Shown piece after piece: positions 4,327-64,000 of a stretch of 64,000 bases of DNA. The DNA comes from Pirellula sp. SH-Sr6A (GTDB lineage: Bacteria; Planctomycetota; Planctomycetia; Pirellulales; Pirellulaceae). The first letter of the stretch is position 1; every line of letters starts with the position of its first letter. The position numbers were made by a program, and so were the translations under genes. The stretch spans positions 62,001-126,000 of the forward strand of contig NZ_CP011272.1 in the NCBI RefSeq assembly GCF_001610875.1, in the 5' to 3' direction. The notes beneath the pieces were generated by a model. The model saw only the letters and a list, made by a program, of their open reading frames with translations, was not told the DNA's origin and did no database searches.

Positions 4327-4343
4327 GGAACCGGCGCATCCCG

Positions 4344-7354: not shown

Positions 7355-7384
7355 TTCCGAAGTGGATCGGTTTTTGTTTATAAT
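7355..7384 (+). promoter_or_regulatory. Candidate sigma-70-type promoter for the Gfo/Idh gene
   Basis: A perfect TATAAT lies at 7379-7384 with a weak -35-like TTCCGA at 7355-7360, 18 bp apart, in the 273-bp gap between divergent genes. Transcription would begin near 7391, leaving a leader of about 90 bases. The -35 match is poor, so the call rests mostly on the -10 box. Confidence 0.4.
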
Positions 7385-7480
7385 GAGGACCCGCGATCCG
7401 AGTATCCAAGATGGGTCGGTCATCGTTTCGACGCTGAACCACCCTGCTTCCCCCCACCTGAATTGAGGTTTTACACCACC

Positions 7481-43355: not shown

Positions 43356-43387
43356 ATCGACGCCCCCTAATATCGACGCCCCCTAAT
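43356..43387. repeat. Perfect 16-bp tandem duplication
   Basis: ATCGACGCCCCCTAAT is repeated without a gap at 43356-43371 and 43372-43387, overlapping the stop of the transposase remnant. It lies at the 3' end of the insertion-sequence relic and may mark its boundary or a slippage event. Confidence 0.8.
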
Positions 43388-44843
43388 ACAGAATGTGACC
43401 ATCCAACCGGGCGTTCCAGCCTAGCAGGCGGTTGAAAATATCGGGTGCTGGGTGAGACACTGGTGATTTTGGATTTCTAGTAGCCGGTAGCCAAAATGGG
43501 TTCGGAGATGCTGGGGCCTTCGGTTGGAATTGCCCCCAACGGAGTGGAAGCTGTTCCGAAAGCGCTCTAAAGTCCTCAATAAAGGCGAGAATCGCTCGCA
43601 TCATTCCCTGTAATCCCATCGAAGTGCCGATTCCGAATAGCATGCGCTTGGCGCCCCCAAGGTTGTAACCCACTGTCATCAGGCAGTACCGTTTCTGGAT
43701 ATTCTCGGTGCCACGCAATCGACATCGACGTCCTCCTCCGGTCTTCAGCACAAGCGCGAAAGTTCTTTCCACTTTCTCGCTTTCCAGCCTCTGAAGATTG
43801 CGTCCCTTATTCCCTTTCTTTATTCGTCGGTTCGCCTGAACCGTTTTGCGTTCCTTGCGAGTGACCTTGCTCCAATTGCGTCCGCCAAGCAACTTGGGCT
43901 CAGGGATGTACGTTCGGTAGTTCGTGTGTTCGTCCAACTCATTCAATGTGTTGGGCGCATGGTAGCCTTTGTCCGCGGCAACATCGCGAATCTCGGTTGC
44001 GCTGACAGCAGCTTCCAGGTGACTTTGGGCCTTGTGAAGGCTCTCCTCCAGCGATTGCGTGTCTGGCGTATCGGCCGGAGTGATCTCCGCGCCGACGATC
44101 ATTCCCGAATCGAATACGACTGCATGCTCAGCTCTATATGCCAAGAGGGTTGTTCCATCTTTCATCCTTGCGATTTTGGCTTCTGGATCGAGTCCGCGTA
44201 CTCAATCTTGGTGGATACTTTTTTCTTCGGCGTTTCCTATCGAATCGCCGGATCACTTCATCCGAAGGCAATTCGTTGTCCTTCATAACGCATTCAGCTC
44301 GCATCAGGCAAATGACATACGATCGCCAGTCTTCGCCGGCATCACGACGAATGATGCTATTCATAGCAGCATCGGCTTCGAGCGTCGTCGAGCCGACAGC
44401 TACGGTCTTGCCTCCGAGAAGCCTCTTCTCCTTGGCAAGCCTCAATACCCATTCGAAGACCGATTCGTGAGCTGTGTCGCGCAAGCGTTTCCGAATAACG
44501 GTCAAGGAGGAATGATCCAGGGAGTGGTCGGTTAACTTGAGGCCAAGGAACTGACGAATCGACGAGATAGCGGCGCATCGCCAAGCAATACCGCATTGCG
44601 TTTCGTTCCTTCGAAATAGCCTAACAAGAGCGAGCGGAAGTAAACCGCAGGTGGAATACCGGGGCGTCCGTAGGGTTGGTTGTAATGCGGAGCACAGAGC
44701 TTCTCGATCCAGGGATCGAAGCCAGCTTTATTGAGAAGTCGATTGAGGTTCGCATAGAACACATGCCCGTCCGAGCGGGGAAGATCATGGGTAGCGATAA
44801 AGAAGGCTGGTTGCTGAACCGATTTGCGTCGTCCAAAGTCCAT
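43383..44843 (-). pseudogene. Degraded IS1182-type transposase
   Basis: Reading from ATG 44843, the N-terminal domain is recognisable (GHVFYANLNRLLNKAGFDPW, GRPGIPPAVYFRSLLLGYFEG). Just after GYFEG (about 44595-44612) the frame breaks; the next frame continues GIAWRCAAISSIRQFLGLKL, HSSLTVIRKRLRDT, KTVAVGSTTLEADAAMNSII and RRDAGEDWRSYVICLM. A further break, probably two shifts around an A-run near 44170-44225, leads to DPEAKIARMKDGTTLLAYRA, VAADKGYHAPNTL, RTYIPEPKLL and the C-terminal VERTFALVLKTGGGRRCRLR. In the family the motif is VDSTTLEANAAM, so the first catalytic Asp has become Gly (codon at 44392-44394). With three frames and a lost active-site residue this is an inactive relic. Inverted ends were not identified. 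Confidence 0.88.
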
Positions 44844-45849: not shown

Positions 45850-46548
45850 TCAAACTCCTGATCCGCTTTCCCCTACACTGCAGCAACCTTTTCGTCGCAT
45901 TCGCCGCAAAGCAAATCCACCAAGACCGGCAATTCCCAAAAGCGCCATCGAAGACGGTTCTGGAACTGCTGTGATTTGGAAAGAACCTTGCTCGACACGG
46001 AAAACATAGGGCGCAGTGTTCACGGAAACCTGCGTCGCGTTCGTCGGAGAAAGGGCATTTGGCACAATGTTAATTCCAAATACTCCTACGGAATTACCTG
46101 CGTTGAACTTGAGATCAAACAAACGCTGAGGCGTTGTCGTGAAACTGGCCGGACTCACAAAAGTCGCACTCAATCGCCTGTCCCAGTTTGCATTCGTTGA
46201 AGGCGGATTACCTTCGATAAATGAAGAGTATCCGCCTCCAAGCGTTACCCCTGTAGTGGAAAACGAAGTTGTTGATGGCGGCGGATCAGGAAACACAAAC
46301 GCGTTGGTGTTGACGAATCTCCCGTCTCCACCCAAATCAAATGCGACACTAAATCCTCCAACAGTTAGGTTCGTCGCCTCAGCAGCAGTGTCAAAGTAGC
46401 CGTAAATAGGCACTATCACACTACCACCCTGCAACACTTCAATAGGATTAGAAGTACCGGTCCCATTCCCTACGCGAAATGTAAATTCGGCGAAAGCTTG
46501 GCTTTGGAGCCATCCTACCAAGACCAAGCTAAAAAGTAGACTTCTCAT
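45850..46548 (-). CDS. PEP-CTERM sorting-domain exported protein
   Basis: A 232-residue exported protein. The signal peptide is RSLLFSLVLVGWLQSQAFA with cleavage before EFTFRVG. The mature region is beta-rich (GGSVIVPIYGYFDTAAEATN, VGGFSVAFDLGGDGRFVNTN) and resembles a cohesin/PEP-CTERM-type sandwich. The C-terminus carries the sorting signal VPEPSSMALLGIAGLGGFAL followed by an Arg-rich RRMRRK, so an exosortase probably processes it; the following residues (GCCSVGESGSGV) extend beyond the usual end. ATG 46548 has AGGAAGG five bases upstream. It lies 54 bp after the giant gene on the same strand and shares its terminator, so co-expression is likely. Confidence 0.92.
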   Translation of the reverse strand: MRSLLFSLVLVGWLQSQAFAEFTFRVGNGTGTSNPIEVLQGGSVIVPIYGYFDTAAEATNLTVGGFSVAFDLGGDGRFVNTNAFVFPDPPPSTTSFSTTGVTLGGGYSSFIEGNPPSTNANWDRRLSATFVSPASFTTTPQRLFDLKFNAGNSVGVFGINIVPNALSPTNATQVSVNTAPYVFRVEQGSFQITAVPEPSSMALLGIAGLGGFALRRMRRKGCCSVGESGSGV

Positions 46549-46602
46549 AAATACCTTCCTTAAAAAACTTTTGAGCAAAATTAATTCGCAGTCAGCTCCA
46601 CC

Positions 46603-49600
46603 CTATGGGCGAAGTAGTCTACTTGCGATTCTTCGGACCACCGATTCAACATCAATAGAATCGACCGAATCCCCAGAACCATTTATATCGGCGAAAATTG
46701 AGTAAGGAGACTCGACGTATCCATCCTCAATGAAACCTGCTTGCGCGCCGATTACGAGCAAGCCGTCAGTACCAAAACTGACCGCCGCATTGCTGTAGGT
46801 TTCATTTGGAATAACCTGTGCTGCCTTCCCAGGAAGTACATTGAACTGGAAGTTGAAATCACCTCCTGCAAAACCGTTTCCTGAAATCGCACTAAGCGTG
46901 TTACTCCACTCACCATCAAGCCTATTTCCGCTTGAATCTGTGACGCCCGCTGCGAGAACCTGAAGGTTAATCACCGACGCATCAAGTGATTGATTCAACG
47001 TCAACGTTGCAATGAACGTAGTTGGATTGAAAGCAACCGATACAACTTGCGGTATCGAAGATGTCGCTCCATCAGCTCGAATTCCAGCTACCGAACTGAG
47101 AAGACTGAAGTCGCTAACGGACAAACTAGCTCCGACGTCTTCTGTGAACTGAACAAGAATCTGATTGATGTTGACCCAAGGTAGGGTCAAGAGCTGGTTG
47201 GATGATCCCAATGGAATAGCATATCCGCGAGCATTGGAATCAAAACCTCCGTCCGCAAAATCCCTAAATACAGGATTCCAGGCGGCCGAATTCACATAGA
47301 CACCACTAATTTGCGGTGCTGTCGTGTCCGTGGAAGCTACGCTGAACGTAATTGTCTTTGCTGTCAGATCCTCGTTCACACCGCCATTCAAAGTACCGCC
47401 GTTGTCGATGACGCGGAAACTAAACGTGCTTGCCGCAGCTCCGAAGACATTCATGGCTGGGAAGAACTCCAACTTTCCAGCAGCAATGTCGGCCTCACTC
47501 ACTACCTGACCTGCCGTCACAGCCACATTGTTCAATCGAAGCTGTCCTGTGGTGGGAAGCGAAGCGATTCGAACCGCATCGAGCACATTGACTGGCGAAT
47601 CCTTTGGATCCGTTAACTCAAAGTCAGACAAAATCAGGGTGTAAGCACCAGGAGTTACCCCAGGGGCCCTGTTCAAAGCTATTGTTTTGTTCACGCCAAC
47701 AGGAGCGTCGTTGGTCGAGGCCATGTTGAGGGTGACCGTGGCAGTGTTTATTCCACCGCGACTGTCGATGACTCGATACATGAACCGAGCAACACCAAAG
47801 AAATCTGGCACCGGTGTGTAAACAAAGCTTCCGTCCGCCAGCATCGAAACCGTTCCTGCACTCGTTGTCGTTGGATTGCCACCAACCACGGCGACTGGCT
47901 GGCTTAGTAGAACCGCTGTAAGCGGCGTATTTCCATCGATATCCGAATCGTTATCAAGCACGTTTCCGGTGACAGCCAAATCCTCGAATCCATTGAACGT
48001 GTCCGCTCCCGCTGTCGGTGCGTTGTTAACCCCGGCGATGGACAAGGTTACCGTCGCGGTCGATGTAGCACCTGAACTATCCTGAATGGTGTACGTGAAC
48101 ATAGTTGTTCCGCTAGGACCAGCAGGATTGAAGTTGAAGTTCGTTGCGGGTGGACTTGTGACCGAAGCCACGTTCAATGTCCCAAACGATCCCAGGAGCA
48201 CGATGGAACCATCGTTGACCGCAGTACCATTGACATTGATGATGGTGATGATCTGAGCTGGCGAATCGACATCGAAATCGTTTGCTAACACGTTCAACGC
48301 AATCGTCGCGTTATTGCTCGCGGCAAAGAAATCATTAACCGCGACCGGCGCGTCGTTCGAGTTTGTTACTGTGACGGCAATCGATTGGCTGTCGGTCAAC
48401 GCCCCATCCGAAACTTGCACGATCACGTCGTAAACGTTATCTGCACCAACATCGGTTGGCATTTCGAAGTTTGGAGCTGCGACAATGCTCAATGCACCTG
48501 TCGTTGGGTGGATGGTGAACTTGATCGCGTCCGCACCTCCGGCAATGCTGTACACCAGATTTTGTGCAGGAACATCACTATCGGTCGCCACTACCGTTGT
48601 AACCGCAGTCGAATTCTCGCTCACGCTAACCGACGCCGAATCACCACCACCATTGCTAGTAATGGTCGGTGCGTCGTTAACCCCGAGTACCTTGAAGCTA
48701 AAGTTTCCTACGTCAAATGGTGTGCCATCGTTGTTGAAGTTATCGGTCACCCCAAACTTGATGTTCACAAAGGCGATCTGACCTGCTCCGAGCGTCTTAA
48801 GAAGCGCCGAGCCGGTGGGATTGAATACCATCGCTCCCGTCGCAGGCGTGTAGCTAAAGCCGATATCAGCAACTGGCACTGTTTGTGGTACGCCGTTGAC
48901 GGTGACCGTCGCAGTGGCTCCAAACTGGAACGATGCTGGTGACAACGTGCTATCCACGTCGGTTGCCAACAAGGAGATTGGAAACTCCAACGCATTGGCC
49001 GGTGCGCCACTTACCAACGTCAACGTGATCGACGAGTTGGCTGGGAATGGATTCTCAAGCGGTCCTGTCAGATCCAGATCGAACGCAACCGGAGCATCGT
49101 TCACCGGATCAACGGTGAGGGTCGCACTGTTGGCCACGGCCGAAGCAATCGTATCCGATACTTGATAGGTAAAGGTTGCAGTTCCGTTGAAATCTGCGGC
49201 CGGGGTAAAGGTCCAAGTATCGTTTCCATTGTTAACGACCACTCCATTGGGTGAAGCCAAGTTCAATACGTTCAGAACTGGTCCATCCACGTCGACCACA
49301 TTGCTCAGCAACGCTGCCTTCGTGATAACGAACGGGTTGTCTTCCAACGTCGTTCCTAACGGAACCACAGGTGTGGTAGACGAAACCACAGGGGCTTCAT
49401 TGACGTTCGTCACGTCAATTGTAATCTCGGCCGTATCGGTCAATCCGCCCGCATCGGTCACGGTAACGTTGAGTGAGTAGCTCGCTGCCGATTCAAAATC
49501 CAAGGCACTGCTGTTGACCACAGTGATCTGGCCCGTAACAGGGTTCACTGCGAAGATCGCAGCTCCCGTTCCACCCGTCACAACCGTAGTACGCGTATCA

Positions 49601-52600
49601 CCAGCATCCACATCGCTCGATGCGATCGACCCAACAATCGTGCCGTTGGCACTATTCTCGGCAACACTGAACGATTGGTCGCTCACGACCGGTTGCTCGT
49701 TTAAGTTGGTTACCGAGAACGTGAAATCGGCCGAACGTTTCTTGGTGAATGAAATATCTTGTACGTTCACCTTACCTGAATAAGTCGGCTTGACCTCGAA
49801 GTCGAGCGAAGTTCCCGCCCTGAGATAAAGGGCATTGCCCACGATCTCAAAGTACGCTGCATCAGCACCTTCAAGACTCAACTCGTTTGTCCCCAAGCCA
49901 TCGTCGGTGACGACGATATCGGCAATCTTGACGCGAGACGAAGTATCGGAGTTCTCCGGTAGGCTCGCGACGACGTTGTCCAAGCTGACGGTGGACGGTG
50001 CATCGTTTGCGTTTGGAATCACGATCGAGACCAGAGCGGGAGCGCTCGAGCCATCAATTGGCTTGCTATCGGTCGCAACGTATTTGAACGTCGCTGTCCC
50101 GAAGAAGTCCGCGTTTGGCGTGAAGGTCACTGTTCCGTCAGGATTGAGCACAACGCTTCCGTCGGTCGCATCACTCACGGACAGGATTTTCAGTGAATTT
50201 CCATCGGGATCTGAATCGTTACCGAGCAGTTGGGATGCGATGAAGGTAACCGCAGTGTCCTCCGTACCGGTCAGCGAATCGGGAACAGCCACAGGTGCCT
50301 TGTTCACAACCACTTCGATCTTATTCGCCAGGACTTCAGAGCCGTTGACACGGTTCCTTGCGATGACTTCGATCGTATAGGTTGCCGATTCATTCGGATC
50401 GAATGCGGACCCGAATAGACCTTCGAAGTTAAGGCTGTCTTGATAGAGCGACAAGTTGTTGATCACAGGAATCAACGCTGCTTGTCCAGCCGCGATGAGA
50501 CCTTGTTCCAGGGTTCCACTTCCGAGGATGGTGTTGGTCGTTTGATTTCGCAGAACGAAGGTGTATTGGAAATCGCCGATCTTGCCCGTTTCGGTACCAG
50601 ATGGATTGGTATCCGCGTTGATCGAAATCCAGTAGTTCCAACGTGCCCAGTTATCATCGAAGTCACCAACAATATCGTTACCGTTGGGTGTCCCTTGAGC
50701 TGTTCCCGCTGGAACGAAAAACTTCGTTGGGTTGGCGGGATCGCGTTGAGCTACTCCTTGTAATCGTAAATCGGCTCTCAAGCCAATTTCCAGACCAGGA
50801 GCATCCACTGGGTCCGTCGCAACAACAAAGTTGGATGCCGAATTACCCGTTCCCTCAGTGAGCTGCCCATTGCCGTTCGTGGAACTGACATGCAATGACG
50901 CATTAGGCTGAATCGTATCAGGATCGCTCGTTGCAAAGATGTTCAACGTCGCAGTTCCAGATGCTATCCCGGGCGTGGCGAGTACCCCGTCACTTACGGT
51001 GAAGCTGAAGCTGACCGTTCCGCTAAAATTAGCGGCCGGTGTGAATGTCCACGATGGACCGGTACCCGACAACGTACCGGCTGAAGTCGTCTCCAACGTC
51101 AATCCAGTGATGCTTAGCGTTTGAGGAGGCAAGTCACTATCGCTTGCCAACGCTAGCAGTTGCGCCGCAGTGATCGAGATCGGTGCACTGTCCTCCACGA
51201 TCGTTCCCAAGTTCGTTGGACCGCTGACAACAGGATCGACATTTGATTCCGCAACATGGATCGTGACAGGCTTGCTGACCGTGACCAAGCCATCGCTTAC
51301 CAGGACGTCAAATGTCACGCTGGTACCACCATCCGTCTCGCCTGGTATCCAGCTAAACGCTCCGGTTGTTGGATTGATCGACGCCCCAAGCGGAGCACCT
51401 GCCAAATTGAATGTCAGCGTTTGAGCAGGTGAATCGGTATCGACTGCCGATGCTGTAAACCCGACAGCCGTTCCCTCGCTTGCAGCAACCGGACTGGTTG
51501 GCACTGTCAACACAGGAGCTGTATTGGCAGGTGCAGTTACATTGATCAGGACCTGAGCACCCGAGAATCCGCCGCGTCCATCGGTAACGAGATAGCTGAA
51601 TGCATCAAGACCTGTAAATCCTGAAGCAGGCATGTAAGTGATCGTTCCACCGGAGATCGACAGTGTTCCACCACCGCTCGTTGCTGGTATGGTACCAGGC
51701 AACATCACGCCATTGACCGCGATCACCGACATCGTATCGAAGTCAGGATCGAAGTCATTCGTGAGAACGTTTACACTCACCTCATTACCACGCGTCGTCG
51801 ACGCAAAATCCCCAATCGCAATCGGAGATTGGTTCGAGCTGAGGATAGCCATAGTGACCGTAGCGGTTGTTTCCAAACCGTCGTCAGAAACTGTGTAACT
51901 AAAGGTATCGAACCCAAACGCATTTAGATTCGGAACGTAAAGCAGCGATCCATCCGCCTGGACGGTAACTGTTCCACGAGTCAATATAACGGGAGTTCCC
52001 ACATTTGCAGCACCATTGACCTTCACGACGGTGCGGGAAACATTGTCCACGTCATTGTCATTAGCGAGCAGGCCATTGACCGCGTTGACGACGAGTGGTG
52101 CGTTGAGTGCGGTGAAGTAAGCATCGTTGCCAGCCGCAACCGCATCGTTCCTACCATTAATCGTGATGCTGACAACCTGACTTGTTCCATCAGCCGTAGT
52201 GACCGTGAATGAATCGTTAAGTATTTGCCCCACGTTCAGTTGATTGACCGCTGGAAGATTGTTGTTCAGCGTGTAGCTCCAACCACCATTCGCATCGATT
52301 GAATAAGTTCCATAGAGCGCTGAACCACTAGCACCAATAAAGTCTTCTGAGCTATCCACATCCGCAGCGCTCAAATCGCCAGTAGCTGTCGGCGTTCCCA
52401 GATCAACCGCAGAATCGCCACCACCACTTGCTTCGACTACTGTGCCAGTTGAATCTCCATTGATGACCGCTGCATCATTGGTACCAGTGATCGTGATGAC
52501 CACTTCCTGGTCATCCGATGCCGTACCGTCACTGGCGCGGACCGTGTACGTCAAAATCAGCGTCTCGCCTGCTGCTAGGTAGTTGAACGCTTCGCTGACA

Positions 52601-55600
52601 CTATTAAACGCCCATGTGAATTGCTCACTGGTTGAGGACGTATCACTCAACAGTGTCGTTGGCGACACTGAGAACATGCCTAGCAATGCGGCGTTTGCCG
52701 GACGGCCAGTGGTCGGACCTGTTCCACTCTCAACAACGCTCACTACCGATGTGGTAATCATGTTGTTGCGATCCAACTCCGTCACCGTCAACGTGTCTGT
52801 CGCTGTCAAACCAGCGTTGCCCTCTGTCAAGAACGCAGATGCACCATTTCCCGTCTCGATGCTAATCACCGGCGCATCGTTGGTACCAGTGATCGTGATG
52901 ACGATGTCTTGCGTGGCGGAACCAGCAGGCACATTGTCATCGGAGACGGTGACAGTATAGGTCAGAACAATCTGCTGCCCCGCTGCTAGATAGTCAAACG
53001 CTCCGGCCGCAGCATTAAACGTCCAGTCCACTGTACCGGTGGTTGCTGTACCATCGATGATGGTCGCATTGAGCTCTGCAGTGAACAGCCCCAACAGATT
53101 CGTAGGCGCTCCTGTGGTCGTGCCTGTGGCCGCGACCGTGATGTTCGAAACGGTCACCACGTCGGTGACATCGACATCTTCAATATTGAACGAACCACTG
53201 GTCGACAAGGCCGCATCGCCTTCGGACAGCGTCTCACTGACGTCCGTCGTGGCGGTCACTGTCGGCGCATCGTTGGTACCAGTAATGGTAATCGTTACAG
53301 TTTGGCTGGATGTCGCGCCCGTTGGAACGTCGGTAACGGTAATGGTGTAAACCTGCGTTAGGGTCTCGCCTGCAGCAAGGTAATCCAACTCGCTGTTGCT
53401 CGCGGTGAACGTCCAGCTCACGGCTCCCTGACCACTGCCCGTGGCTACATTGGAAATCGTTGGCGTGAACACACCGATGTAACCTAATGCGCCCGCAGTC
53501 GCTGCGACCGTATGCGTATCGGTCAAGTCAACATCGGAGAACTTGATCACGCCGCTGTCACTGTATGTCGCTGTGGCTTCGCCCGCAGTTCCATCGGCAA
53601 CTTCTGTAATCGCTCCCTCATAAACGCCAAGCTTGAGGTTATCGATCGCCAAACCGCTAGGCAGACTAATGTCGGTGAACCAACCGTAGCGAATGCCGCC
53701 AACTGCAGTTGCAATCAAATCTGATGGATCAGACAACGTAGCGATCGTTTGCGAAGCGCCAGTGGACTTGTTGGTCAAGATCAAGTCGACCGAAAGGACG
53801 CCACTAACATCATTGAATACATGCGTTAGTGTATACCAGCCACTGGCCAAGACTGTGGCCGCATTCGAAGGTGTCGAGGTCAAGGCCGTCTGTGTGGCTC
53901 CATTGGCAGCTCCAATCTCGATCCTTCCCGTGCCAGTCGAACGAACCAAGAATGCGAAGTCACGTCGATGCGTGCCAGCTTGGTTGTTAGCAGCAACCGA
54001 GTACTGGAAGCCTTCGTTCAATGCCCATGTGATATCCAAGTAGACGTCAACGCCCGCTTGTTGGCCGTTCACAAATTCACTGGTGTAGCCACCGAAGCGT
54101 GTGAATGGACCAGTATCCGGAGTTCCGTCGGCTTCACTGACAACAGCGTACGAACCAGTCGCGCCTGTGAGTCCCGTGGCTGGACCGCTGACCGCTCCGT
54201 AGCCACCGGCTGTGACAAGACCGGAAGTATCCGTCTCAAAGTCCTGAACGAAACCAAGAACAGGCGCATCATTGGTACCAGTGATCGTGATGACGATGTC
54301 TTGCGTGGCGGAACCAGCAGGCACATTGTCATCGGAGACGGTGACAGTATAGGTCAGAACAATCTGCTGCCCCGCTGCTAGATAGTCAAACGCTCCGGCC
54401 GCAGCATTAAACGTCCAGTCCACTGTACCGGTGGTTGCTGTACCATCGATGATGGTCGCATTGAGCTCTGCAGTGAACAGCCCCAACAGATTCGTAGGCG
54501 CTCCTGTGGTCGTGCCTGTGGCCGCGACCGTGATGTTCGAAACGGTCACCACGTCGGTGACATCGACATCTTCAATATTGAACGAACCACTGGTCGACAA
54601 GGCCGCATCGCCTTCGGACAGCGTCTCACTGACGTCCGTCGTGGCGGTCACTGTCGGCGCATCGTTGGTACCAGTAATGGTAATCGTTACAGTTTGGCTG
54701 GATGTCGCGCCCGTTGGAACGTCGGTAACGGTAATGGTGTAAACCTGCGTTAGGGTCTCGCCTGCAGCAAGGTAATCCAACTCGCTGTTGCTCGCGGTGA
54801 ACGTCCAGCTCACGGCTCCCTGACCACTGCCCGTGGCTACATTGGAAATCGTTGGCGTGAACACACCGATGTAACCTAATGCGCCCGCAGTCGCTGCGAC
54901 CGTATGCGTATCGGTCAAGTCAACATCGGAGAACTTGATCACGCCGCTGTCACTGTATGTCGCTGTGGCTTCGCCCGCAGTTCCATCGGCAACTTCTGTA
55001 ATCGCTCCCTCATAAACGCCAAGCTTGAGGTTATCGATCGCCAAACCGCTAGGCAGACTAATGTCGGTGAACCAACCGTAGCGAATGCCGCCAACTGCAG
55101 TTGCAATCAAATCTGATGGATCAGACAACGTAGCGATCGTTTGCGAAGCGCCAGTGGACTTGTTGGTCAAGATCAAGTCGACCGAAAGGACGCCACTAAC
55201 ATCATTGAATACATGCGTTAGTGTATACCAGCCACTGGCCAAGACTGTGGCCGCATTCGAAGGTGTCGAGGTCAAGGCCGTCTGTGTGGCTCCATTGGCA
55301 GCTCCAATCTCGATCCTTCCCGTGCCAGTCGAACGAACCAAGAATGCGAAGTCACGTCGATGCGTGCCAGCTTGGTTGTTAGCAGCAACCGAGTACTGGA
55401 AGCCTTCGTTCAATGCCCATGTGATATCCAAGTAGACGTCAACGCCCGCTTGTTGGCCGTTCACAAATTCACTGGTGTAGCCACCGAAGCGTGTGAATGG
55501 ACCAGTATCCGGAGTTCCGTCGGCTTCACTGACAACAGCGTACGAACCAGTCGCGCCTGTGAGTCCCGTGGCTGGACCGCTGACCGCTCCGTAGCCACCG

Positions 55601-58600
55601 GCTGTGACAAGACCGGAAGTATCCGTCTCAAAGTCCTGAACGAAACCAAGAACAGGCGCATCATTGGTACCAGTGATCGTGATGACCACTTCCTGGTCAT
55701 CCGATGCCGTACCGTCACTGGCGCGGACCGTGTACGTCAAAATCAGCGTCTCGCCTGCTGCTAGGTAGTTGAACGCTTCGCTGACACTATTAAACGCCCA
55801 TGTGAATTGCTCACTGGTTGAGGACGTATCACTCAACAGTGTCGTTGGCGACACTGAGAACATGCCTAGCAATGCGGCGTTTGCCGGACGGCCAGTGGTC
55901 GGACCTGTTCCACTCTCAACAACGCTCACTACCGATGTGGTAATCATGTTGTTGCGATCCAACTCCGTCACCGTCAACGTGTCTGTCGCTGTCAAACCAG
56001 CGTTGCCCTCTGTCAAGAACGCAGATGCACCATTTCCCGTCTCGATGCTAATCACCGGCGCATCGTTGGTACCAGTGATCGTGATGACGATGTCTTGCGT
56101 GGCGGAACCAGCAGGCACATTGTCATCGGAGACGGTGACAGTATAGGTCAGAACAATCTGCTGCCCCGCTGCTAGATAGTCAAACGCTCCGGCCGCAGCA
56201 TTAAACGTCCAGTCCACTGTACCGGTGGTTGCTGTACCATCGATGATGGTCGCATTGAGCTCTGCAGTGAACAGCCCCAACAGATTCGTAGGCGCTCCTG
56301 TGGTCGTGCCTGTGGCCGCGACCGTGATGTTCGAAACGGTCACCACGTCGGTGACATCGACATCTTCAATATTGAACGAACCACTGGTCGACAAGGCCGC
56401 ATCGCCTTCGGACAGCGTCTCACTGACGTCCGTCGTGGCGGTCACTGTCGGCGCATCGTTGGTACCAGTAATGGTAATCGTTACAGTTTGGCTGGATGTC
56501 GCGCCCGTTGGAACGTCGGTAACGGTAATGGTGTAAACCTGCGTTAGGGTCTCGCCTGCAGCAAGGTAATCCAACTCGCTGTTGCTCGCGGTGAACGTCC
56601 AGCTCACGGCTCCCTGACCACTGCCCGTGGCTACATTGGAAATCGTTGGCGTGAACACACCGATGTAACCTAATGCGCCCGCAGTCGCTGCGACCGTATG
56701 CGTATCGGTCAAGTCAACATCGGAGAACTTGATCACGCCGCTGTCACTGTATGTCGCTGTGGCTTCGCCCGCAGTTCCATCGGCAACTTCTGTAATCGCT
56801 CCCTCATAAACGCCAAGCTTGAGGTTATCGATCGCCAAACCGCTAGGCAGACTAATGTCGGTGAACCAACCGTAGCGAATGCCGCCAACTGCAGTTGCAA
56901 TCAAATCTGATGGATCAGACAACGTAGCGATCGTTTGCGAAGCGCCAGTGGACTTGTTGGTCAAGATCAAGTCGACCGAAAGGACGCCACTAACATCATT
57001 GAATACATGCGTTAGTGTATACCAGCCACTGGCCAAGACTGTGGCCGCATTCGAAGGTGTCGAGGTCAAGGCCGTCTGTGTGGCTCCATTGGCAGCTCCA
57101 ATCTCGATCCTTCCCGTGCCAGTCGAACGAACCAAGAATGCGAAGTCACGTCGATGCGTGCCAGCTTGGTTGTTAGCAGCAACCGAGTACTGGAAGCCTT
57201 CGTTCAATGCCCATGTGATATCCAAGTAGACGTCAACGCCCGCTTGTTGGCCGTTCACAAATTCACTGGTGTAGCCACCGAAGCGTGTGAATGGACCAGT
57301 ATCCGGAGTTCCGTCGGCTTCACTGACAACAGCGTACGAACCAGTCGCGCCTGTGAGTCCCGTGGCTGGACCGCTGACCGCTCCGTAGCCACCGGCTGTG
57401 ACAAGACCGGAAGTATCCGTCTCAAAGTCCTGAACGAAACCAAGAACAGGCGCATCATTGGTACCAGTGATCGTGATGACGATGTCTTGCGTGGCGGAAC
57501 CAGCAGGCACATTGTCATCGGAGACGGTGACAGTATAGGTCAGAACAATCTGCTGCCCCGCTGCTAGATAGTCAAACGCTCCGGCCGCAGCATTAAACGT
57601 CCAGTCCACTGTACCGGTGGTTGCTGTACCATCGATGATGGTCGCATTGAGCTCTGCAGTGAACAGCCCCAACAGATTCGTAGGCGCTCCTGTGGTCGTG
57701 CCTGTGGCCGCGACCGTGATGTTCGAAACGGTCACCACGTCGGTGACATCGACATCTTCAATATTGAACGAACCACTGGTCGACAAGGCCGCATCGCCTT
57801 CGGACAGCGTCTCACTGACGTCCGTCGTGGCGGTCACTGTCGGCGCATCGTTGGTACCAGTAATGGTAATCGTTACAGTTTGGCTGGATGTCGCGCCCGT
57901 TGGAACGTCGGTAACGGTAATGGTGTAAACCTGCGTTAGGGTCTCGCCTGCAGCAAGGTAATCCAACTCGCTGTTGCTCGCGGTGAACGTCCAGCTCACG
58001 GCTCCCTGACCACTGCCCGTGGCTACATTGGAAATCGTTGGCGTGAACACACCGATGTAACCTAATGCGCCCGCAGTCGCTGCGACCGTATGCGTATCGG
58101 TCAAGTCAACATCGGAGAACTTGATCACGCCGCTGTCACTGTATGTCGCTGTGGCTTCGCCCGCAGTTCCATCGGCAACTTCTGTAATCGCTCCCTCATA
58201 AACGCCAAGCTTGAGGTTATCGATCGCCAAACCGCTAGGCAGACTAATGTCGGTGAACCAACCGTAGCGAATGCCGCCAACTGCAGTTGCAATCAAATCT
58301 GATGGATCAGACAACGTAGCGATCGTTTGCGAAGCGCCAGTGGACTTGTTGGTCAAGATCAAGTCGACCGAAAGGACGCCACTAACATCATTGAATACAT
58401 GCGTTAGTGTATACCAGCCACTGGCCAAGACTGTGGCCGCATTCGAAGGTGTCGAGGTCAAGGCCGTCTGTGTGGCTCCATTGGCAGCTCCAATCTCGAT
58501 CCTTCCCGTGCCAGTCGAACGAACCAAGAATGCGAAGTCACGTCGATGCGTGCCAGCTTGGTTGTTAGCAGCAACCGAGTACTGGAAGCCTTCGTTCAAT

Positions 58601-61600
58601 GCCCATGTGATATCCAAGTAGACGTCAACGCCCGCTTGTTGGCCGTTCACAAATTCACTGGTGTAGCCACCGAAGCGTGTGAATGGACCAGTATCCGGAG
58701 TTCCGTCGGCTTCACTGACAACAGCGTACGAACCAGTCGCGCCTGTGAGTCCCGTGGCTGGACCGCTGACCGCTCCGTAGCCACCGGCTGTGACAAGACC
58801 GGAAGTATCCGTCTCAAAGTCCTGAACGAAACCAAGAACAGGCGCATCGTTGGTACCAGTGATTTGAATCAGGAAGCTCCTGGCTCCTTCGTTGTTTGCC
58901 GCTTCTCCATCGTTGATGGCAATTGAATAGGTGAGATTTAGGACGTCTCCCTGGCGAAGATAGTCAAAAGCGGCGCTCGGCGCACTAAAATTAAGATTAA
59001 CGGATCCGGTTGACGCACCACTGTTCTTGATTACCGCGTTAGGCGTTATTAGAGCAAGTAAGTCTGCCGTTGAAAGAGCTAGGCCCGTGGTAGCTCCGGA
59101 GGCAACTACGCTGTTAACACTTACTACATGGCCGATATCAACTAAGTCAGCGTCCGAAAACGTCACTGGTATCGTCGCGACAACTGGGTTTGTATCCGTT
59201 TGCTCATTGAGACTCGTTGATGCAATCGAGTTAATGACCGGAGCATCATTCGATCCGGTCACAGTCACTGTGACCGTAAATTCGTCGAACTTTGTTGCAT
59301 CGGAAGGATCACTTAGACGAACTCGGAAGGTTCGTGTAAGCGTCTGCCCATACGCGAGGAAATTGATTGCCGCGTTGCTTACGCTGTATGTCCACTCAAC
59401 TTCGCCCAACTGATCATCGAACGCCGAATCTGTCGTCGAAACTGACAGCGAGCCAACTGGTCCAATCGGTCCTCCGGGCAAGCTCGGAGAGACTACTTGC
59501 GAGAGTGGAGTCAGAGTGATGCTGGGGTCTTCGGATTGCAAATCTTGAAAGGAAATTGTGCCCGTGGCAATACTCAAACCTGCAGTAGCTAAAGGTTCAA
59601 GAACATCTCCTGTGCCCGACACTGCGTAAATCTCGGGCGCCTCTGTTTCAATTACTAAGGTGAAGGCTGCGGAGGGAGGACTGGGGTTACTGGCGTTGTC
59701 GGTCGCAATGGCCGTGATGCTGTATGTTCCGTCCGCCAGAGTCGTGCCAGTATAGTCAAACGACCATAGCCCTGCCCCATCAGCAACGGTGTCCCCTAGA
59801 AGGCCAACACCGCTATAAACTGAAATTGAGCTGTTTGGCTCAGCGGTGCCACTGAAAAGAATCGTGTTGTCGCTTGTTTTTCCATTTGTCGATACTAACC
59901 CGGTATCCCTAGTGATGGACAACACAACCGGAGCATCAGGACTATCGGTGTCCTTTGTCGTGCTGTCACCTGCCCCGGTAGCCACATTGCCAACGTTATC
60001 GATCACCGACACGGCAAGTGTAATAACGCCATCCACCAAACCGGCCAAGTCAACAGCTCCATTTGAAATTACATTGCTCACTTCAACCGTGTTAAATAAA
60101 GAATCCGTAAAGGTCAACGTCGCAACAGCGTCGCCATCCAACCCCGAGACAACATAAGGAACCGACGAGACGGTACCATTTCCGGCGAAGGCAGGAAGGG
60201 ACACACTAACAGGCAAAGACTCATCTGCCTGCAAGTCCCGGGCAAGTACTATTCCACTGGCACTCGCGTAAGACACATCCCACTTCGTGTCAGCAATTGA
60301 CTTCGCGTTTGGTCGGCTGACGATACTTACCGTCGTATTCGAAAATTCCCCTGTCACCGTGCCCGTGGTTGAAACAATTGCTAGGGCGTCATTATGCAAT
60401 GGAACGTAGGAGGGATCGACGACAAAATTCAAGGTCGCTCCCGAAACAACCACATTCCCATTCACGACAAAATTATCATACTCCGACGCCGCATTTGTGC
60501 CAAACGCCTCAATCAGCAGAACATCGCCCGAGTTTAGGACGAGGTCCCCATCAACAGTAACTCTTGCAGGACTACTGCCGGGTGACAAAATAATGGATTT
60601 GCCTGACGCATTAGCTCCCCCGGTATAGCTAGATCCGCCCTGAATATGGACCGTATCCCCCGCAGACGCAGCATCAATTGCTCTTTGCACGCTAGGCGAA
60701 GCATTTGTTGACGCAAAGCTATTGGGGGTGACATATACATGTCCACTATTCACCCTTACGAAGCCGGTGTTTTCATCATCGATGGCATGAACGATTTTAT
60801 CTTCGATCGCAAAGTTCTGAGCTACCGTTACAGCCGCACCCAAGAAGCCCTCAAACGTTGCTTGAATAGCGTTGATCTCTAGATTGTCCAAAGCATTACT
60901 GCTTAGCACCACATAATCCACCGCTTGGCCACTGAAGCTAAGATTGTTGAGCGAGTTTCCCACCAACGAGGCTGCAGTTCCGGAGAAACTTAGGCCGACA
61001 TCACCGCCAGTTACAGCACTTCCTGGCAGAACCTCAAGCGACCCTGCGGAGCTGGTCGACACTCCGGTTTCATTATTCGCAAGCGTAGCGCCTGAAAGAA
61101 CCGCTACACCACCCGTCACAAGTACACCAGTAGATGTGTTCGATACTGAATCGGCAACAATTGCTCGCCCTCCGGTTACTTGCACACCCGTGCTAATTCC
61201 CAAACTGTAGGTATTGTCTCCTGTTCCACCGATAGTTACACCAACAAAATTGCTTGCCGGCAAAGTGTCCGAGATCTGAATTGCTGTTCCGGTAGACCCG
61301 GTCGATGCACCAAATGCATTGTCGTCGATCACCGTATTAACGGGGCTAGAATCAGCGCCATTCGAACTTGCTGACTGCGAATTGACACGAACATGGGTAA
61401 AGGTAAGGCCTGCGGCCGTCAAATCTCCCTTCGGGTTGAAGACATTGCCATTGACGGACACATCGCGAGCACCGCCTACATCGACGGCCGTAACACTATT
61501 ATTAAACGTGTTGCTTATAATCGAGATGGGGGAACCGCTCGCTACGTTACGATTGACCTGCAGAGAGGTGCGCGGAACAGAAGCCGCGATACTCAGAGAC

Positions 61601-64000
61601 GGGTTAAAAGCATTATTCTGGATCGTCACTGGAGCACCCGCATTCGGATCTGCAACTACCAAGCCGCCGCCACCGCTAATATGGGCACCATTGAATGCGT
61701 TATTGGTTATGGAGGAAGGAGCACCGGATGGAAATTGGAAAATCAAGTCGTTTGCAGAACCTGCAAATGTGTTACCAGTAACAGTCGCATTCAATTGCGC
61801 AAACCAAACCGCCCGTTGGAAGAAGCTGGTGCCACTCGTGACATTCACATTGTTGTTGGTAATCGTGATCGCAGGAATTCCCCCAGATGGGCTGTCATAA
61901 AGCACTATCCCCGCCGCTCGCACACTAAAGCTTGGAGACCCTGACCAATTTGCAGGGGAATTGCCAATCGACGTGATCGTATTGTTCTCGATGACCAAAC
62001 CATTGAAGTCCGACGTGGTTGCGGGCGTGGCTCCTATCCCCACCGGGGCGATGGGTTGCCCCGCGCCGTTATCATTCTGGTTTACTTGAATGCTCAGATC
62101 TCGAATGGTGACGTTGGTAGAGGCGATTGTGGAAATAATCTGCTGCGATCCAGAGGTTCTTTTAATCGAAGCAACACCAGTACCATCGATCGTGGAGGGC
62201 TTATTGACGATGAAAGTCTCATCGTAGATTCCTTCGGTAACCTCAACCATTCTCGCCCCCCCCGTCAGGACGCCGTCTGACAAGAGATTTATCGCTTCTT
62301 GAATCTTACCGACAGAACCAACTTGTGGGCTGTTCGCATGCGTCAAGAGATGGGACAAATCCGGTTGGAAACCAACCGTGCCAGGATTCGTGTCTATTCC
62401 CGATGCAAGAGTCGGGCTGAAGTCAATGTTTGCGGAAGCACTGCCACGAATTGCTTCAAGGCCGGGACCAGCGGGAGGAGCGACGGCGGCACCACCAAAG
62501 CCTACTGGTATTTGATCCGCGTATCCCGGTTCACCCCCCTGAACCGTACTCACCGAAGGAGTGGACGAACCAAACCAGTTCGATGAGAAATTCTTTAAAT
62601 TCGTACCTGGCGCTGCCACTGAACTACCGTATTGGCGATCCTCTACCTGTGCATACCAGTTTCCACTTATGTTATTAAACCGGAATGCTGAGTTCAACGC
62701 TTCTTGAACGGGAACGTTGCTGCCATTACTTGCATCGAGGAACAATACGCCCGAGGTCCAGTTGTTTGTAATAAAGTTGCTTTCAACCGTCAGGTTGTTC
62801 GTTTGATTCCTAAGTATCATTCCGGTACGGTTATTCGTGATCGTGTTATTCACGATTGTGTGGCCCGACGTATTGTTGATGTCAATGCCCGTGCGATTGC
62901 CCACAATTAACGTACGACGAACCGTCATTCCAGAGATTGCCGTCCCGATCACAGCGACTCCGGCGGAGTTCAGACCAGAGTTATTCCAGTCGGTTGTGTT
63001 ATTTCCCTCACGCGTAATTCGAACGTCTTCGATGGTCACGTTGCTTGCGCTGACCTGGATCGTTGCAACTGCCCCGCCTATCGCTCCGCTAACCGTGGTA
63101 GCGTCGCTACCTGCCCCCTTGACTGTAACGCCCGCTTTAGTGACGTTTACATCCTCGACGAATGTTCCAGGAGCGATCAAGATGATGTCGCCGGCGTTCG
63201 CGGCATCGATCGCCGACTGAATGGAATCGAATCCACCTCGACCTACCAAGCGATAGGTCTTTCCGGTCGAATCAACGACCGTTTCCACGTCGATCAATTG
63301 GTCTGTACCGCTGGTAGTGGTACCTGTTACTTTCCAACCAGCCAGCGTCGTTGAGCTAACCAAGACACTACCATCTGGAGTAATCTGGGATTCTGTCAAT
63401 GCTTCGGTGTAAATCGCGGTATCGTTGCCACCCTTGCCTAGAATGGTGTCGTCGCCTGCGCCACCGGTGAATGTGTCATTGTCCGAGTTGCTATTCAAGT
63501 TATTGCCGTCCAGGAAGTCGGCTCCTGATGTTCCCACGATCGTATCACTGCCTACACCACCGAGCACGACGGTGACTTGACCGCTGCTAGAGGTATTGCC
63601 GCCAGCGCTGAGGTCAATTGAGAAATTGCCTGGGACGTTACGCGCGTTGATGTCGGAATCAACATCGACGAATGTGTTGTTGGTCAAATTCGAAACGGCG
63701 AATGGTCCAACCGGGCCGTACGAAATGCCCGTTCCTGCAAGTGCGAACGTGTTGTTCGAAACAACTGGATCCGTTGTCGGTGTGTCAAGATTAATCGCGG
63801 AACGCGTGCTGTTGAACGTGTTGCCGGATATGGTCAACGCTACTCCGCTACCGTCGGACCAAATTCCACGCCCCCACGCCGCTGTACCATATTTGCCAAG
63901 CGACGTGCCTGTGATCAAGTTATTGGTGATTGCGATCGATCCCATGGCAATTGGAGAAATCGAAATCGCGCGTGCATCGGAAGTGCCACCGTTTGTCTCG
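46603..64000 (-). CDS. Giant repetitive secreted/surface protein (5' end outside window)
   Basis: The frame is open to the right edge, so at least 5798 residues are visible and the N-terminus is missing (an internal Met at 63945 is not the start). Residues below count from that Met. An RTX-like calcium patch lies at 131-178 (GSDTIVGTSGADFLDGNN, GGAGDDTILGKGGNDTAIY). Right-handed beta-helix stretches surround it (GFDSIQSAIDAANAGDIILI; SVQRAIDAASAGDTVHIQGG). Ig-like and VCBS/cadherin-like domains follow, many ending ITGTNDAP. The middle (about 1702-3824) is the duplicated A/B array, and more VCBS and cadherin-like domains run to the end. The C-terminus (FADINGSGDSVDSIDVESVV) recalls a degenerate dockerin loop. 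I noticed no cysteine where I checked. Role in adhesion, biofilm or S-layer-like coats is inference. Confidence 0.9.
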   Translation of the reverse strand, partial: ETNGGTSDARAISISPIAMGSIAITNNLITGTSLGKYGTAAWGRGIWSDGSGVALTISGNTFNSTRSAINLDTPTTDPVVSNNTFALAGTGISYGPVGPFAVSNLTNNTFVDVDSDINARNVPGNFSIDLSAGGNTSSSGQVTVVLGGVGSDTIVGTSGADFLDGNNLNSNSDNDTFTGGAGDDTILGKGGNDTAIYTEALTESQITPDGSVLVSSTTLAGWKVTGTTTSGTDQLIDVETVVDSTGKTYRLVGRGGFDSIQSAIDAANAGDIILIAPGTFVEDVNVTKAGVTVKGAGSDATTVSGAIGGAVATIQVSASNVTIEDVRITREGNNTTDWNNSGLNSAGVAVIGTAISGMTVRRTLIVGNRTGIDINNTSGHTIVNNTITNNRTGMILRNQTNNLTVESNFITNNWTSGVLFLDASNGSNVPVQEALNSAFRFNNISGNWYAQVEDRQYGSSVAAPGTNLKNFSSNWFGSSTPSVSTVQGGEPGYADQIPVGFGGAAVAPPAGPGLEAIRGSASANIDFSPTLASGIDTNPGTVGFQPDLSHLLTHANSPQVGSVGKIQEAINLLSDGVLTGGARMVEVTEGIYDETFIVNKPSTIDGTGVASIKRTSGSQQIISTIASTNVTIRDLSIQVNQNDNGAGQPIAPVGIGATPATTSDFNGLVIENNTITSIGNSPANWSGSPSFSVRAAGIVLYDSPSGGIPAITITNNNVNVTSGTSFFQRAVWFAQLNATVTGNTFAGSANDLIFQFPSGAPSSITNNAFNGAHISGGGGLVVADPNAGAPVTIQNNAFNPSLSIAASVPRTSLQVNRNVASGSPISIISNTFNNSVTAVDVGGARDVSVNGNVFNPKGDLTAAGLTFTHVRVNSQSASSNGADSSPVNTVIDDNAFGASTGSTGTAIQISDTLPASNFVGVTIGGTGDNTYSLGISTGVQVTGGRAIVADSVSNTSTGVLVTGGVAVLSGATLANNETGVSTSSAGSLEVLPGSAVTGGDVGLSFSGTAASLVGNSLNNLSFSGQAVDYVVLSSNALDNLEINAIQATFEGFLGAAVTVAQNFAIEDKIVHAIDDENTGFVRVNSGHVYVTPNSFASTNASPSVQRAIDAASAGDTVHIQGGSSYTGGANASGKSIILSPGSSPARVTVDGDLVLNSGDVLLIEAFGTNAASEYDNFVVNGNVVVSGATLNFVVDPSYVPLHNDALAIVSTTGTVTGEFSNTTVSIVSRPNAKSIADTKWDVSYASASGIVLARDLQADESLPVSVSLPAFAGNGTVSSVPYVVSGLDGDAVATLTFTDSLFNTVEVSNVISNGAVDLAGLVDGVITLAVSVIDNVGNVATGAGDSTTKDTDSPDAPVVLSITRDTGLVSTNGKTSDNTILFSGTAEPNSSISVYSGVGLLGDTVADGAGLWSFDYTGTTLADGTYSITAIATDNASNPSPPSAAFTLVIETEAPEIYAVSGTGDVLEPLATAGLSIATGTISFQDLQSEDPSITLTPLSQVVSPSLPGGPIGPVGSLSVSTTDSAFDDQLGEVEWTYSVSNAAINFLAYGQTLTRTFRVRLSDPSDATKFDEFTVTVTVTGSNDAPVINSIASTSLNEQTDTNPVVATIPVTFSDADLVDIGHVVSVNSVVASGATTGLALSTADLLALITPNAVIKNSGASTGSVNLNFSAPSAAFDYLRQGDVLNLTYSIAINDGEAANNEGARSFLIQITGTNDAPVLGFVQDFETDTSGLVTAGGYGAVSGPATGLTGATGSYAVVSEADGTPDTGPFTRFGGYTSEFVNGQQAGVDVYLDITWALNEGFQYSVAANNQAGTHRRDFAFLVRSTGTGRIEIGAANGATQTALTSTPSNAATVLASGWYTLTHVFNDVSGVLSVDLILTNKSTGASQTIATLSDPSDLIATAVGGIRYGWFTDISLPSGLAIDNLKLGVYEGAITEVADGTAGEATATYSDSGVIKFSDVDLTDTHTVAATAGALGYIGVFTPTISNVATGSGQGAVSWTFTASNSELDYLAAGETLTQVYTITVTDVPTGATSSQTVTITITGTNDAPTVTATTDVSETLSEGDAALSTSGSFNIEDVDVTDVVTVSNITVAATGTTTGAPTNLLGLFTAELNATIIDGTATTGTVDWTFNAAAGAFDYLAAGQQIVLTYTVTVSDDNVPAGSATQDIVITITGTNDAPVLGFVQDFETDTSGLVTAGGYGAVSGPATGLTGATGSYAVVSEADGTPDTGPFTRFGGYTSEFVNGQQAGVDVYLDITWALNEGFQYSVAANNQAGTHRRDFAFLVRSTGTGRIEIGAANGATQTALTSTPSNAATVLASGWYTLTHVFNDVSGVLSVDLILTNKSTGASQTIATLSDPSDLIATAVGGIRYGWFTDISLPSGLAIDNLKLGVYEGAITEVADGTAGEATATYSDSGVIKFSDVDLTDTHTVAATAGALGYIGVFTPTISNVATGSGQGAVSWTFTASNSELDYLAAGETLTQVYTITVTDVPTGATSSQTVTITITGTNDAPTVTATTDVSETLSEGDAALSTSGSFNIEDVDVTDVVTVSNITVAATGTTTGAPTNLLGLFTAELNATIIDGTATTGTVDWTFNAAAGAFDYLAAGQQIVLTYTVTVSDDNVPAGSATQDIVITITGTNDAPVISIETGNGASAFLTEGNAGLTATDTLTVTELDRNNMITTSVVSVVESGTGPTTGRPANAALLGMFSVSPTTLLSDTSSTSEQFTWAFNSVSEAFNYLAAGETLILTYTVRASDGTASDDQEVVITITGTNDAPVLGFVQDFETDTSGLVTAGGYGAVSGPATGLTGATGSYAVVSEADGTPDTGPFTRFGGYTSEFVNGQQAGVDVYLDITWALNEGFQYSVAANNQAGTHRRDFAFLVRSTGTGRIEIGAANGATQTALTSTPSNAATVLASGWYTLTHVFNDVSGVLSVDLILTNKSTGASQTIATLSDPSDLIATAVGGIRYGWFTDISLPSGLAIDNLKLGVYEGAITEVADGTAGEATATYSDSGVIKFSDVDLTDTHTVAATAGALGYIGVFTPTISNVATGSGQGAVSWTFTASNSELDYLAAGETLTQVYTITVTDVPTGATSSQTVTITITGTNDAPTVTATTDVSETLSEGDAALSTSGSFNIEDVDVTDVVTVSNITVAATGTTTGAPTNLLGLFTAELNATIIDGTATTGTVDWTFNAAAGAFDYLAAGQQIVLTYTVTVSDDNVPAGSATQDIVITITGTNDAPVLGFVQDFETDTSGLVTAGGYGAVSGPATGLTGATGSYAVVSEADGTPDTGPFTRFGGYTSEFVNGQQAGVDVYLDITWALNEGFQYSVAANNQAGTHRRDFAFLVRSTGTGRIEIGAANGATQTALTSTPSNAATVLASGWYTLTHVFNDVSGVLSVDLILTNKSTGASQTIATLSDPSDLIATAVGGIRYGWFTDISLPSGLAIDNLKLGVYEGAITEVADGTAGEATATYSDSGVIKFSDVDLTDTHTVAATAGALGYIGVFTPTISNVATGSGQGAVSWTFTASNSELDYLAAGETLTQVYTITVTDVPTGATSSQTVTITITGTNDAPTVTATTDVSETLSEGDAALSTSGSFNIEDVDVTDVVTVSNITVAATGTTTGAPTNLLGLFTAELNATIIDGTATTGTVDWTFNAAAGAFDYLAAGQQIVLTYTVTVSDDNVPAGSATQDIVITITGTNDAPVISIETGNGASAFLTEGNAGLTATDTLTVTELDRNNMITTSVVSVVESGTGPTTGRPANAALLGMFSVSPTTLLSDTSSTSEQFTWAFNSVSEAFNYLAAGETLILTYTVRASDGTASDDQEVVITITGTNDAAVINGDSTGTVVEASGGGDSAVDLGTPTATGDLSAADVDSSEDFIGASGSALYGTYSIDANGGWSYTLNNNLPAVNQLNVGQILNDSFTVTTADGTSQVVSITINGRNDAVAAGNDAYFTALNAPLVVNAVNGLLANDNDVDNVSRTVVKVNGAANVGTPVILTRGTVTVQADGSLLYVPNLNAFGFDTFSYTVSDDGLETTATVTMAILSSNQSPIAIGDFASTTRGNEVSVNVLTNDFDPDFDTMSVIAVNGVMLPGTIPATSGGGTLSISGGTITYMPASGFTGLDAFSYLVTDGRGGFSGAQVLINVTAPANTAPVLTVPTSPVAASEGTAVGFTASAVDTDSPAQTLTFNLAGAPLGASINPTTGAFSWIPGETDGGTSVTFDVLVSDGLVTVSKPVTIHVAESNVDPVVSGPTNLGTIVEDSAPISITAAQLLALASDSDLPPQTLSITGLTLETTSAGTLSGTGPSWTFTPAANFSGTVSFSFTVSDGVLATPGIASGTATLNIFATSDPDTIQPNASLHVSSTNGNGQLTEGTGNSASNFVVATDPVDAPGLEIGLRADLRLQGVAQRDPANPTKFFVPAGTAQGTPNGNDIVGDFDDNWARWNYWISINADTNPSGTETGKIGDFQYTFVLRNQTTNTILGSGTLEQGLIAAGQAALIPVINNLSLYQDSLNFEGLFGSAFDPNESATYTIEVIARNRVNGSEVLANKIEVVVNKAPVAVPDSLTGTEDTAVTFIASQLLGNDSDPDGNSLKILSVSDATDGSVVLNPDGTVTFTPNADFFGTATFKYVATDSKPIDGSSAPALVSIVIPNANDAPSTVSLDNVVASLPENSDTSSRVKIADIVVTDDGLGTNELSLEGADAAYFEIVGNALYLRAGTSLDFEVKPTYSGKVNVQDISFTKKRSADFTFSVTNLNEQPVVSDQSFSVAENSANGTIVGSIASSDVDAGDTRTTVVTGGTGAAIFAVNPVTGQITVVNSSALDFESAASYSLNVTVTDAGGLTDTAEITIDVTNVNEAPVVSSTTPVVPLGTTLEDNPFVITKAALLSNVVDVDGPVLNVLNLASPNGVVVNNGNDTWTFTPAADFNGTATFTYQVSDTIASAVANSATLTVDPVNDAPVAFDLDLTGPLENPFPANSSITLTLVSGAPANALEFPISLLATDVDSTLSPASFQFGATATVTVNGVPQTVPVADIGFSYTPATGAMVFNPTGSALLKTLGAGQIAFVNIKFGVTDNFNNDGTPFDVGNFSFKVLGVNDAPTITSNGGGDSASVSVSENSTAVTTVVATDSDVPAQNLVYSIAGGADAIKFTIHPTTGALSIVAAPNFEMPTDVGADNVYDVIVQVSDGALTDSQSIAVTVTNSNDAPVAVNDFFAASNNATIALNVLANDFDVDSPAQIITIINVNGTAVNDGSIVLLGSFGTLNVASVTSPPATNFNFNPAGPSGTTMFTYTIQDSSGATSTATVTLSIAGVNNAPTAGADTFNGFEDLAVTGNVLDNDSDIDGNTPLTAVLLSQPVAVVGGNPTTTSAGTVSMLADGSFVYTPVPDFFGVARFMYRVIDSRGGINTATVTLNMASTNDAPVGVNKTIALNRAPGVTPGAYTLILSDFELTDPKDSPVNVLDAVRIASLPTTGQLRLNNVAVTAGQVVSEADIAAGKLEFFPAMNVFGAAASTFSFRVIDNGGTLNGGVNEDLTAKTITFSVASTDTTAPQISGVYVNSAAWNPVFRDFADGGFDSNARGYAIPLGSSNQLLTLPWVNINQILVQFTEDVGASLSVSDFSLLSSVAGIRADGATSSIPQVVSVAFNPTTFIATLTLNQSLDASVINLQVLAAGVTDSSGNRLDGEWSNTLSAISGNGFAGGDFNFQFNVLPGKAAQVIPNETYSNAAVSFGTDGLLVIGAQAGFIEDGYVESPYSIFADINGSGDSVDSIDVESVVRRIASRLLRP
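52472..55657 (-). repeat. 3186-bp tandem supra-repeat, copy 1 (B, A, A in plus-strand order)
   Basis: Composed of unit B (52472-52873, 402 bp, 134 codons) and two A units (52874-54265 and 54266-55657, 1392 bp, 464 codons each). Unit A encodes a LamG-like segment (starting GFVQDFETDTSGLVTAGGYG) plus two VCBS-type domains ending ITGTNDAP; unit B encodes one more such domain (starting ISIETGNGASAFLTEGNAGL). The two A units compared by eye differ only at one base near their start (GCATCG against GCATCA). Confidence 0.9.
55658..58843 (-). repeat. 3186-bp tandem supra-repeat, copy 2
   Basis: Same order as copy 1: B (55658-56059), A (56060-57451), A (57452-58843). All landmarks are offset by exactly 3186 bp from copy 1, including the G/A difference at the A-unit borders, and stretches compared by eye are identical. 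Identity ends at 58843-58860, where the sequence changes to a different domain. Confidence 0.9.

Follow-up and report, generated by a model that had tools for sequence, protein, structure and literature searches.

A perfectly duplicated array of lectin-like and VCBS domains in a giant gene of the planctomycete Pirellula sp. SH-Sr6A: a probable case of recombination-driven expansion

Planctomycetes are rich in giant genes whose use is largely unknown, and the question raised by the locus described here is how such a gene may change by the exchange of whole domains. The stretch under study (64,000 nucleotides, contig NZ_CP011272.1, positions 62,001 to 126,000; hereafter the window, in whose coordinates positions are given) comes from Pirellula sp. 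SH-Sr6A, a planctomycete of the family Pirellulaceae. It contains a giant gene on the minus strand (46603..64000, continuing to G000:C1:127976, 1976 bp past the window) that encodes a protein of 6457 aa (P0123), the central part of which is an array duplicated without a mismatch. We consider it probable that the product is a giant secreted or surface protein with a central array that can be expanded by recombination, the main rivals being a single neutral duplication event and, with lower probability, a copy number misstated by the assembly. The locus is a concrete, testable case of a giant gene changing by whole-domain exchange, with crossovers resolved to the base, a history that can be read and, for natural comparison, a related gene that carries a different perfect array in the same position.

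Structure of the array and its domains

A sequence-only reading of the window had proposed a head-to-tail duplication of 3186 bp, in which the block order B-A-A occurs twice with all borders 3186 bp apart, and exact-match comparison within the window bore this out: positions 52472-55662 equal positions 55658-58848 over 3191 bp at a lag of 3186, with 0 mismatches, and the plus strand reads B-A-A-B-A-A (A-A-B-A-A-B in the protein, i.e., in the coding order of the minus strand). The array end that it had placed at 58843 was correct to within 5 bp. Block A measures 1392 bp and block B 402 bp (2 × 1392 + 402 = 3186), and the nested AAB structure was read from exact runs at lags of 1392, 1794 and 4578; the A copies within each 3186-bp unit also match each other, without a difference over 1415 and 1391 bp at lag 1392. 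In coding order, the copies are A1 (57469..58860, 464 aa, with ConA-like and VCBS domains), A2 (56077..57468), B1 (55675..56076, 134 aa, VCBS), A3 (54283..55674), A4 (52891..54282) and B2 (52489..52890), all on the minus strand. Base-by-base comparison showed that both B copies are identical and that A2, A3 and A4 are equal, while A1 departs from them by a single silent substitution at base 58849 (C in place of T on the coding strand). This base falls just beyond the 3191-bp match, at its upstream edge, and is the single difference in 3186 when the units are phased at the hinge; the alignment of the two units, a check set beforehand, found no silent differences inside the match. The entire array is a single open frame without stop codons. 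With approximately 823 synonymous sites per unit, the 95% upper bound of the synonymous divergence (dS) between units is 0.0036, which together with the 0 differences supports the earlier proposal of a very recent duplication and/or homogenisation; ongoing gene conversion was raised at the same time, and the hinge alleles described below suggest that copies exchanged sequence after the first duplication.

Repeated 40-mers, direct or inverted, were not found elsewhere in the window, and chance or a low-complexity repeat was ruled out on this ground together with the exact 3191-bp match. Far from the array, GAA/GAC-rich low-complexity tandem repeats were seen at 1636-1939. A genome-wide search located the 3186-bp unit at two places only in the 6.53-Mb genome, the assembly of which (G000) is one contig of 6,534,136 bases; no donor copy was found elsewhere in it, the next-best match to the lectin-like domain having an E-value of 0.05. 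A plasmid origin was dismissed, as the unit had no match in a plasmid collection searched with megablast, which needs high identity.

Each unit encodes 1062 aa with two ConA/lectin-like and five VCBS immunoglobulin (Ig)-like domains: block A consists of a ConA/legume-lectin-like domain and VCBS Ig-like domains, and block B of a single VCBS domain (TIGR01965 scores of 60.5 and 31.6 bits, respectively, at a cut-off of 15.5). A sequence match to PDB 6xi1, a tandem extender of Aeromonas hydrophila, was also obtained. Block A is predicted to be nearly all-beta (pTM 0.53, mean pLDDT 78.6), and its lectin-like domain, located on the minus strand at 58180..58848 in A1 and at 56788-57456, 54994-55662 and 53602-54270 in the other copies, has a ConA-like lectin fold according to the structure prediction and its structural matches, at 5-13% sequence identity to ConA-like, legume-lectin, GH16 and CBM structures. 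Sugar binding by this domain is putative. Where other bacteria have relatives of the domain as stand-alone proteins, these are of the PEP-CTERM type; kinship with the PEP-CTERM protein encoded downstream of the giant gene on the same strand (45850..46578) was rejected, no sequence similarity being seen between the two.

The giant protein is ordered as N terminus, beta-helix region, RTX stretch, Big_13, V0, array, C and tail, with the array occupying residues 2373-4496 (~33% of the 6457 aa). V0 (58861..59256) and C (52165..52488, its far end set by us for comparison) are diverged VCBS domains at the upstream and downstream edges of the array, and the C-terminal tail (46603..52164, borders of single domains not set) contains nine tandem-95 (or Big_9) stretches and cadherin-like domains, all on the minus strand. 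PF00353 (RTX nonapeptide repeats) matches one stretch, with 25.3 bits in the N-terminal piece and 22.6 bits in the overlapping window piece, above and below the cut-off of 23. The protein is probably secreted or surface-located. Its cluster at 90% identity has one member sequence. Transposase genes of several families flank the giant gene (window 43383-44165 and positions 3918-8047 of locus L003), at least one of which matches its model only in part.

Hinge sequences and the order of exchanges

The borders of the array units sit in the ITGTNDA hinge codons between VCBS domains. A hinge 20-mer, ATYACTGGTACCAAYGATGC, lies at the V0/A1 junction (58844..58863, minus strand) and starts again at 52472, 52874, 53267, 54266, 54659, 55658, 56060, 56453, 57452 and 57845, which makes 11 copies, all inside the array or at its edge; it was not found in 59 relatives. 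Hinge alleles, given as the third positions of the N and A codons in that order, are c,G at V0/A, t,G at A/A, c,G at A/B, t,G at B/A and t,A at B/C. By these alleles the B/A junction is a chimera of B/C and V0/A, with the crossover placed within 5 bp, inside GATGC; the t found at B's end is present at the A/A junctions too, a sign of an exchange between A/B and B/A once B/A existed. The pattern suggests that sequence was exchanged several times, not duplicated once. When hinge and homologous exchanges were searched breadth-first, with at most 4 events and at most 12 domains per state, one shortest history emerged, which takes 3 events (AB → ABAB → AAB → AABAAB). Four different junctions share the same T, G, T and D hinge codons (post hoc P ~3e-6 if codons were drawn independently), and the domain bodies at these junctions have only 27-45% protein identity. 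The hinge also holds an 8-bp palindrome, TGGTACCA (window 52472-58863), with no evidence of a role.

From these junctions we infer a mechanism in which the short, near-identical hinge DNA between VCBS domains would have permitted the first unequal exchanges, joining whole domains in frame, and in which copies could be gained, lost and made uniform by ordinary homologous recombination after kilobase-long identical copies had arisen. Copy number may in this way vary among cells. Gain or loss of a unit would alter both the reach of the protein and the number of its putative carbohydrate-binding sites, because each 1062-aa unit brings lectin-like as well as VCBS domains.

Related loci and rival explanations

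Compared with 26 other genomes of the genus (at most five candidates scored per genome), the DNA of the unit gave two short matches, both in genome G003 (77% over 70 bp and 68% over 168 bp). The lectin-like domain was matched in 9 of 241 family genomes, including that of SH-Sr6A, which is the only one of its genus among the nine; the match in G061 is weak and contains stops. The most informative comparison is offered by G071, from another genus of the same family, the giant protein of which can be aligned over 874 columns (67%), over a further 817 columns up to the array border (48.7%) and again in the tail (43.5% over 439 and 43.3% over 926 columns); its gene is homologous and probably orthologous. 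At the array position it has a 393-bp VCBS unit repeated 12.7 times, without a single base difference over 4982 bp, and the lectin-like domain was not found in this protein. A specific derivation of the G071 unit from B appeared weak, as its identity to B (59/129 residues) and to the last VCBS domain of A (55/125) is nearly equal. A 274-aa stretch with V0 has counterparts of 50% identity in G071 and of 46% in G217, where two contigs (C62 and C49) resemble the parts before and after the array; C62 ends and C49 begins in VCBS repeats that match mutually at 93% over 826 bp, and the two may be one gene broken by its own repeats. A giant-gene fragment in G204 reads VCBS-lectin-VCBS-VCBS (~52% over 650-700 columns) and shares the lectin-VCBS-VCBS order of our gene, with one lectin-like copy before the contig ends; that this contig end is a duplicated end was not supported, since it occurs once.

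We tentatively suggest, as a possibility only, that giant surface proteins of Pirellulaceae share a conserved module slot between V0 and the tandem-95 tail. Different modules (the lectin-bearing AAB unit in SH-Sr6A, plain VCBS in G071 and probably in G217, lectin-VCBS-VCBS in the G204 gene) would be brought into it and multiplied into perfect arrays through hinge recombination, and both reach and lectin valency would then evolve on strain time-scales. The GC content at third codon positions is 0.59 in A and B together, 0.46 in V0 and 0.41 in C, and 0.515 and 0.537 in the coding stretches of the window before and after the array. The lectin module may have been imported recently: its contrast with V0 and C and its patchy spread would fit this, the values of the coding stretches before and after the array and the same domain order in the G204 gene less so.

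The array could alternatively have arisen by a one-off recent duplication, through replication slippage or unequal exchange, that is neutral, transient and has no role in tuning the protein. Such a young event would suit the absence of differences within the 3191-bp match, the scarcity of unit DNA in the 26 other genomes of the genus (the two short G003 matches) and the fact that no variation among strains has been shown; we nevertheless regard it as unlikely, because A is duplicated within each unit too, the hinge alleles are suggestive of repeated events and the same slot in G071 carries another perfect array. The perfection of the G071 array over 12.7 units, like the B/A allele at the A/A junctions, would be expected if an old array were held identical by frequent gene conversion with a stable copy number. 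To this account we give somewhat less credence again, as the searches made gave no genome with the same AABAAB at moderate divergence; in the G204 gene, whose contig ends after one lectin-like copy, any array would lie out of sight.

The copy count of the array is the assembly's claim. Short-read assemblies usually collapse repeats rather than expand them. A true gene with one AAB unit, or another copy number, that was duplicated by the assembler would show perfect identity, and the consulted part of one study documents repeat errors in databases (PMC6868369), but the single-contig assembly, the usual direction of the error, the difference of A1 from A2-A4 and the chimeric B/A junction all argue against it, the last because nothing in a copy made purely by the assembler would call for a chimera at base level. 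We therefore hold an artefact to be improbable. Very little weight is given to the idea that the hinge DNA is a specific recombination site, acting for instance via the 8-bp palindrome, and kept by selection: it would account for the codons shared by the four junctions, but other VCBS genes that were examined use different hinge codons, none of the 59 relatives has the 20-mer, and a common origin of the junctions is the simpler explanation.

Several points weigh against a secreted or surface protein with an array expandable by recombination. No secretion or anchoring motif above cut-off was found in the giant protein (the N-terminal PF07595, Planc_extracel, scores 17.2 bits at a cut-off of 25.5), none of the Pfam and NCBIfam families matches the lectin-like domain at E ≤ 1, and ConA-like folds are found also in enzymes and non-binding domains. 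The start of V0 bears a different hinge sequence, and a history of two duplications and one silent mutation takes the same number of steps as the favoured path, although it requires the mutation to fall on exactly the allele base. The orthology of the G071 gene is based on best match and order of parts, and the comparison genomes are one per species. Exact repeats of at least 1 kb occur in 2 of 33 loci (overlapping stretches counted), one of them our gene, and those of at least 60 aa in 8 of 35 homologous giant proteins (our own excluded), so that a broad habit of exact repeats in giant genes is not supported. A seemingly long repeat in L069 proved to be a run of N and was not counted.

Other repeats were noted in passing. 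The homologous giant protein P0127 of Rubripirellula amarantea (7583 aa) has an exact internal repeat of 516 aa at a distance of 845 residues. In the SH-Sr6A genome, another giant gene (L045, G000:C1:1965001-1984000, at ~4400-9000) contains repeats of ~105 aa that are grouped by fours into a higher-order period (315 × 4 = 1260 bp), with exact runs reaching 429 bp, and is an older, partly decayed nested array. Further repeats with several periods and exact runs of up to 191 bp (L042, G000:C1:255001-270000, at ~4400-7300) lie some kilobases ahead of C1:268030, where a further locus resembles the N terminus of the giant protein.

Comparison with known systems

Three groups of proteins and one fold come close to this locus. 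The VCBS-repeat RTX adhesins, such as that of A. hydrophila with the 6xi1 extender, share the TIGR01965 domains above cut-off and the sequence match, and differ in that our protein has a beta-helix, tandem-95 stretches and a sub-threshold planctomycete N-terminal motif. Huge planctomycete proteins typically have Big_9, Cadherin_4/5 and haemolysin-type Ca-binding domains (PMC5177795, PMC11573180), and the gene described here resembles theirs in its very long open frame and in these domains; what the consulted parts of those papers report is numbers and domains, not perfect internal amplification. Titles and abstract openings in the literature yielded no paper that describes perfect VCBS arrays from planctomycetes. 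From the ConA-like, legume-lectin, GH16 and CBM fold, the lectin-like domain is set apart by its low identity and the lack of a matching family model, and its binding is putative.

The nearest parallel is with Periscope Proteins (SasG, Rib, Sgo_0707, CdrA, CshA), described in the consulted part of PMC8201768 as surface proteins with near-identical tandem domains, the number of which is changed by recombination. VCBS does not occur in the main text of that paper, nor does any word beginning with Planctomycet in a 2022 review (PMC9704523). Common to both are long tandem series of domains encoded by near-identical DNA, their folding and the surface location of the protein being predictions in our case, and intragenic recombination as the proposed origin of length change; the repeats here comprise a 1062-aa unit, an exact 3191-bp match and A copies at most one base apart. 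In contrast to known periscopes, the perfect unit here is a nested AAB block that itself bears a lectin-like, ConA-like domain, so that valency would change with length, and the same slot in another genus holds a different unit. By analogy, our best reading is that the segment works like a Periscope Protein, and we file it as such, not as a proven member. It would extend the length variation of surface proteins from pathogen stalks to environmental bacteria and to lectin valency; if the module-slot reading is true, the gene would encode a periscope whose binding head can be replaced and multiplied.
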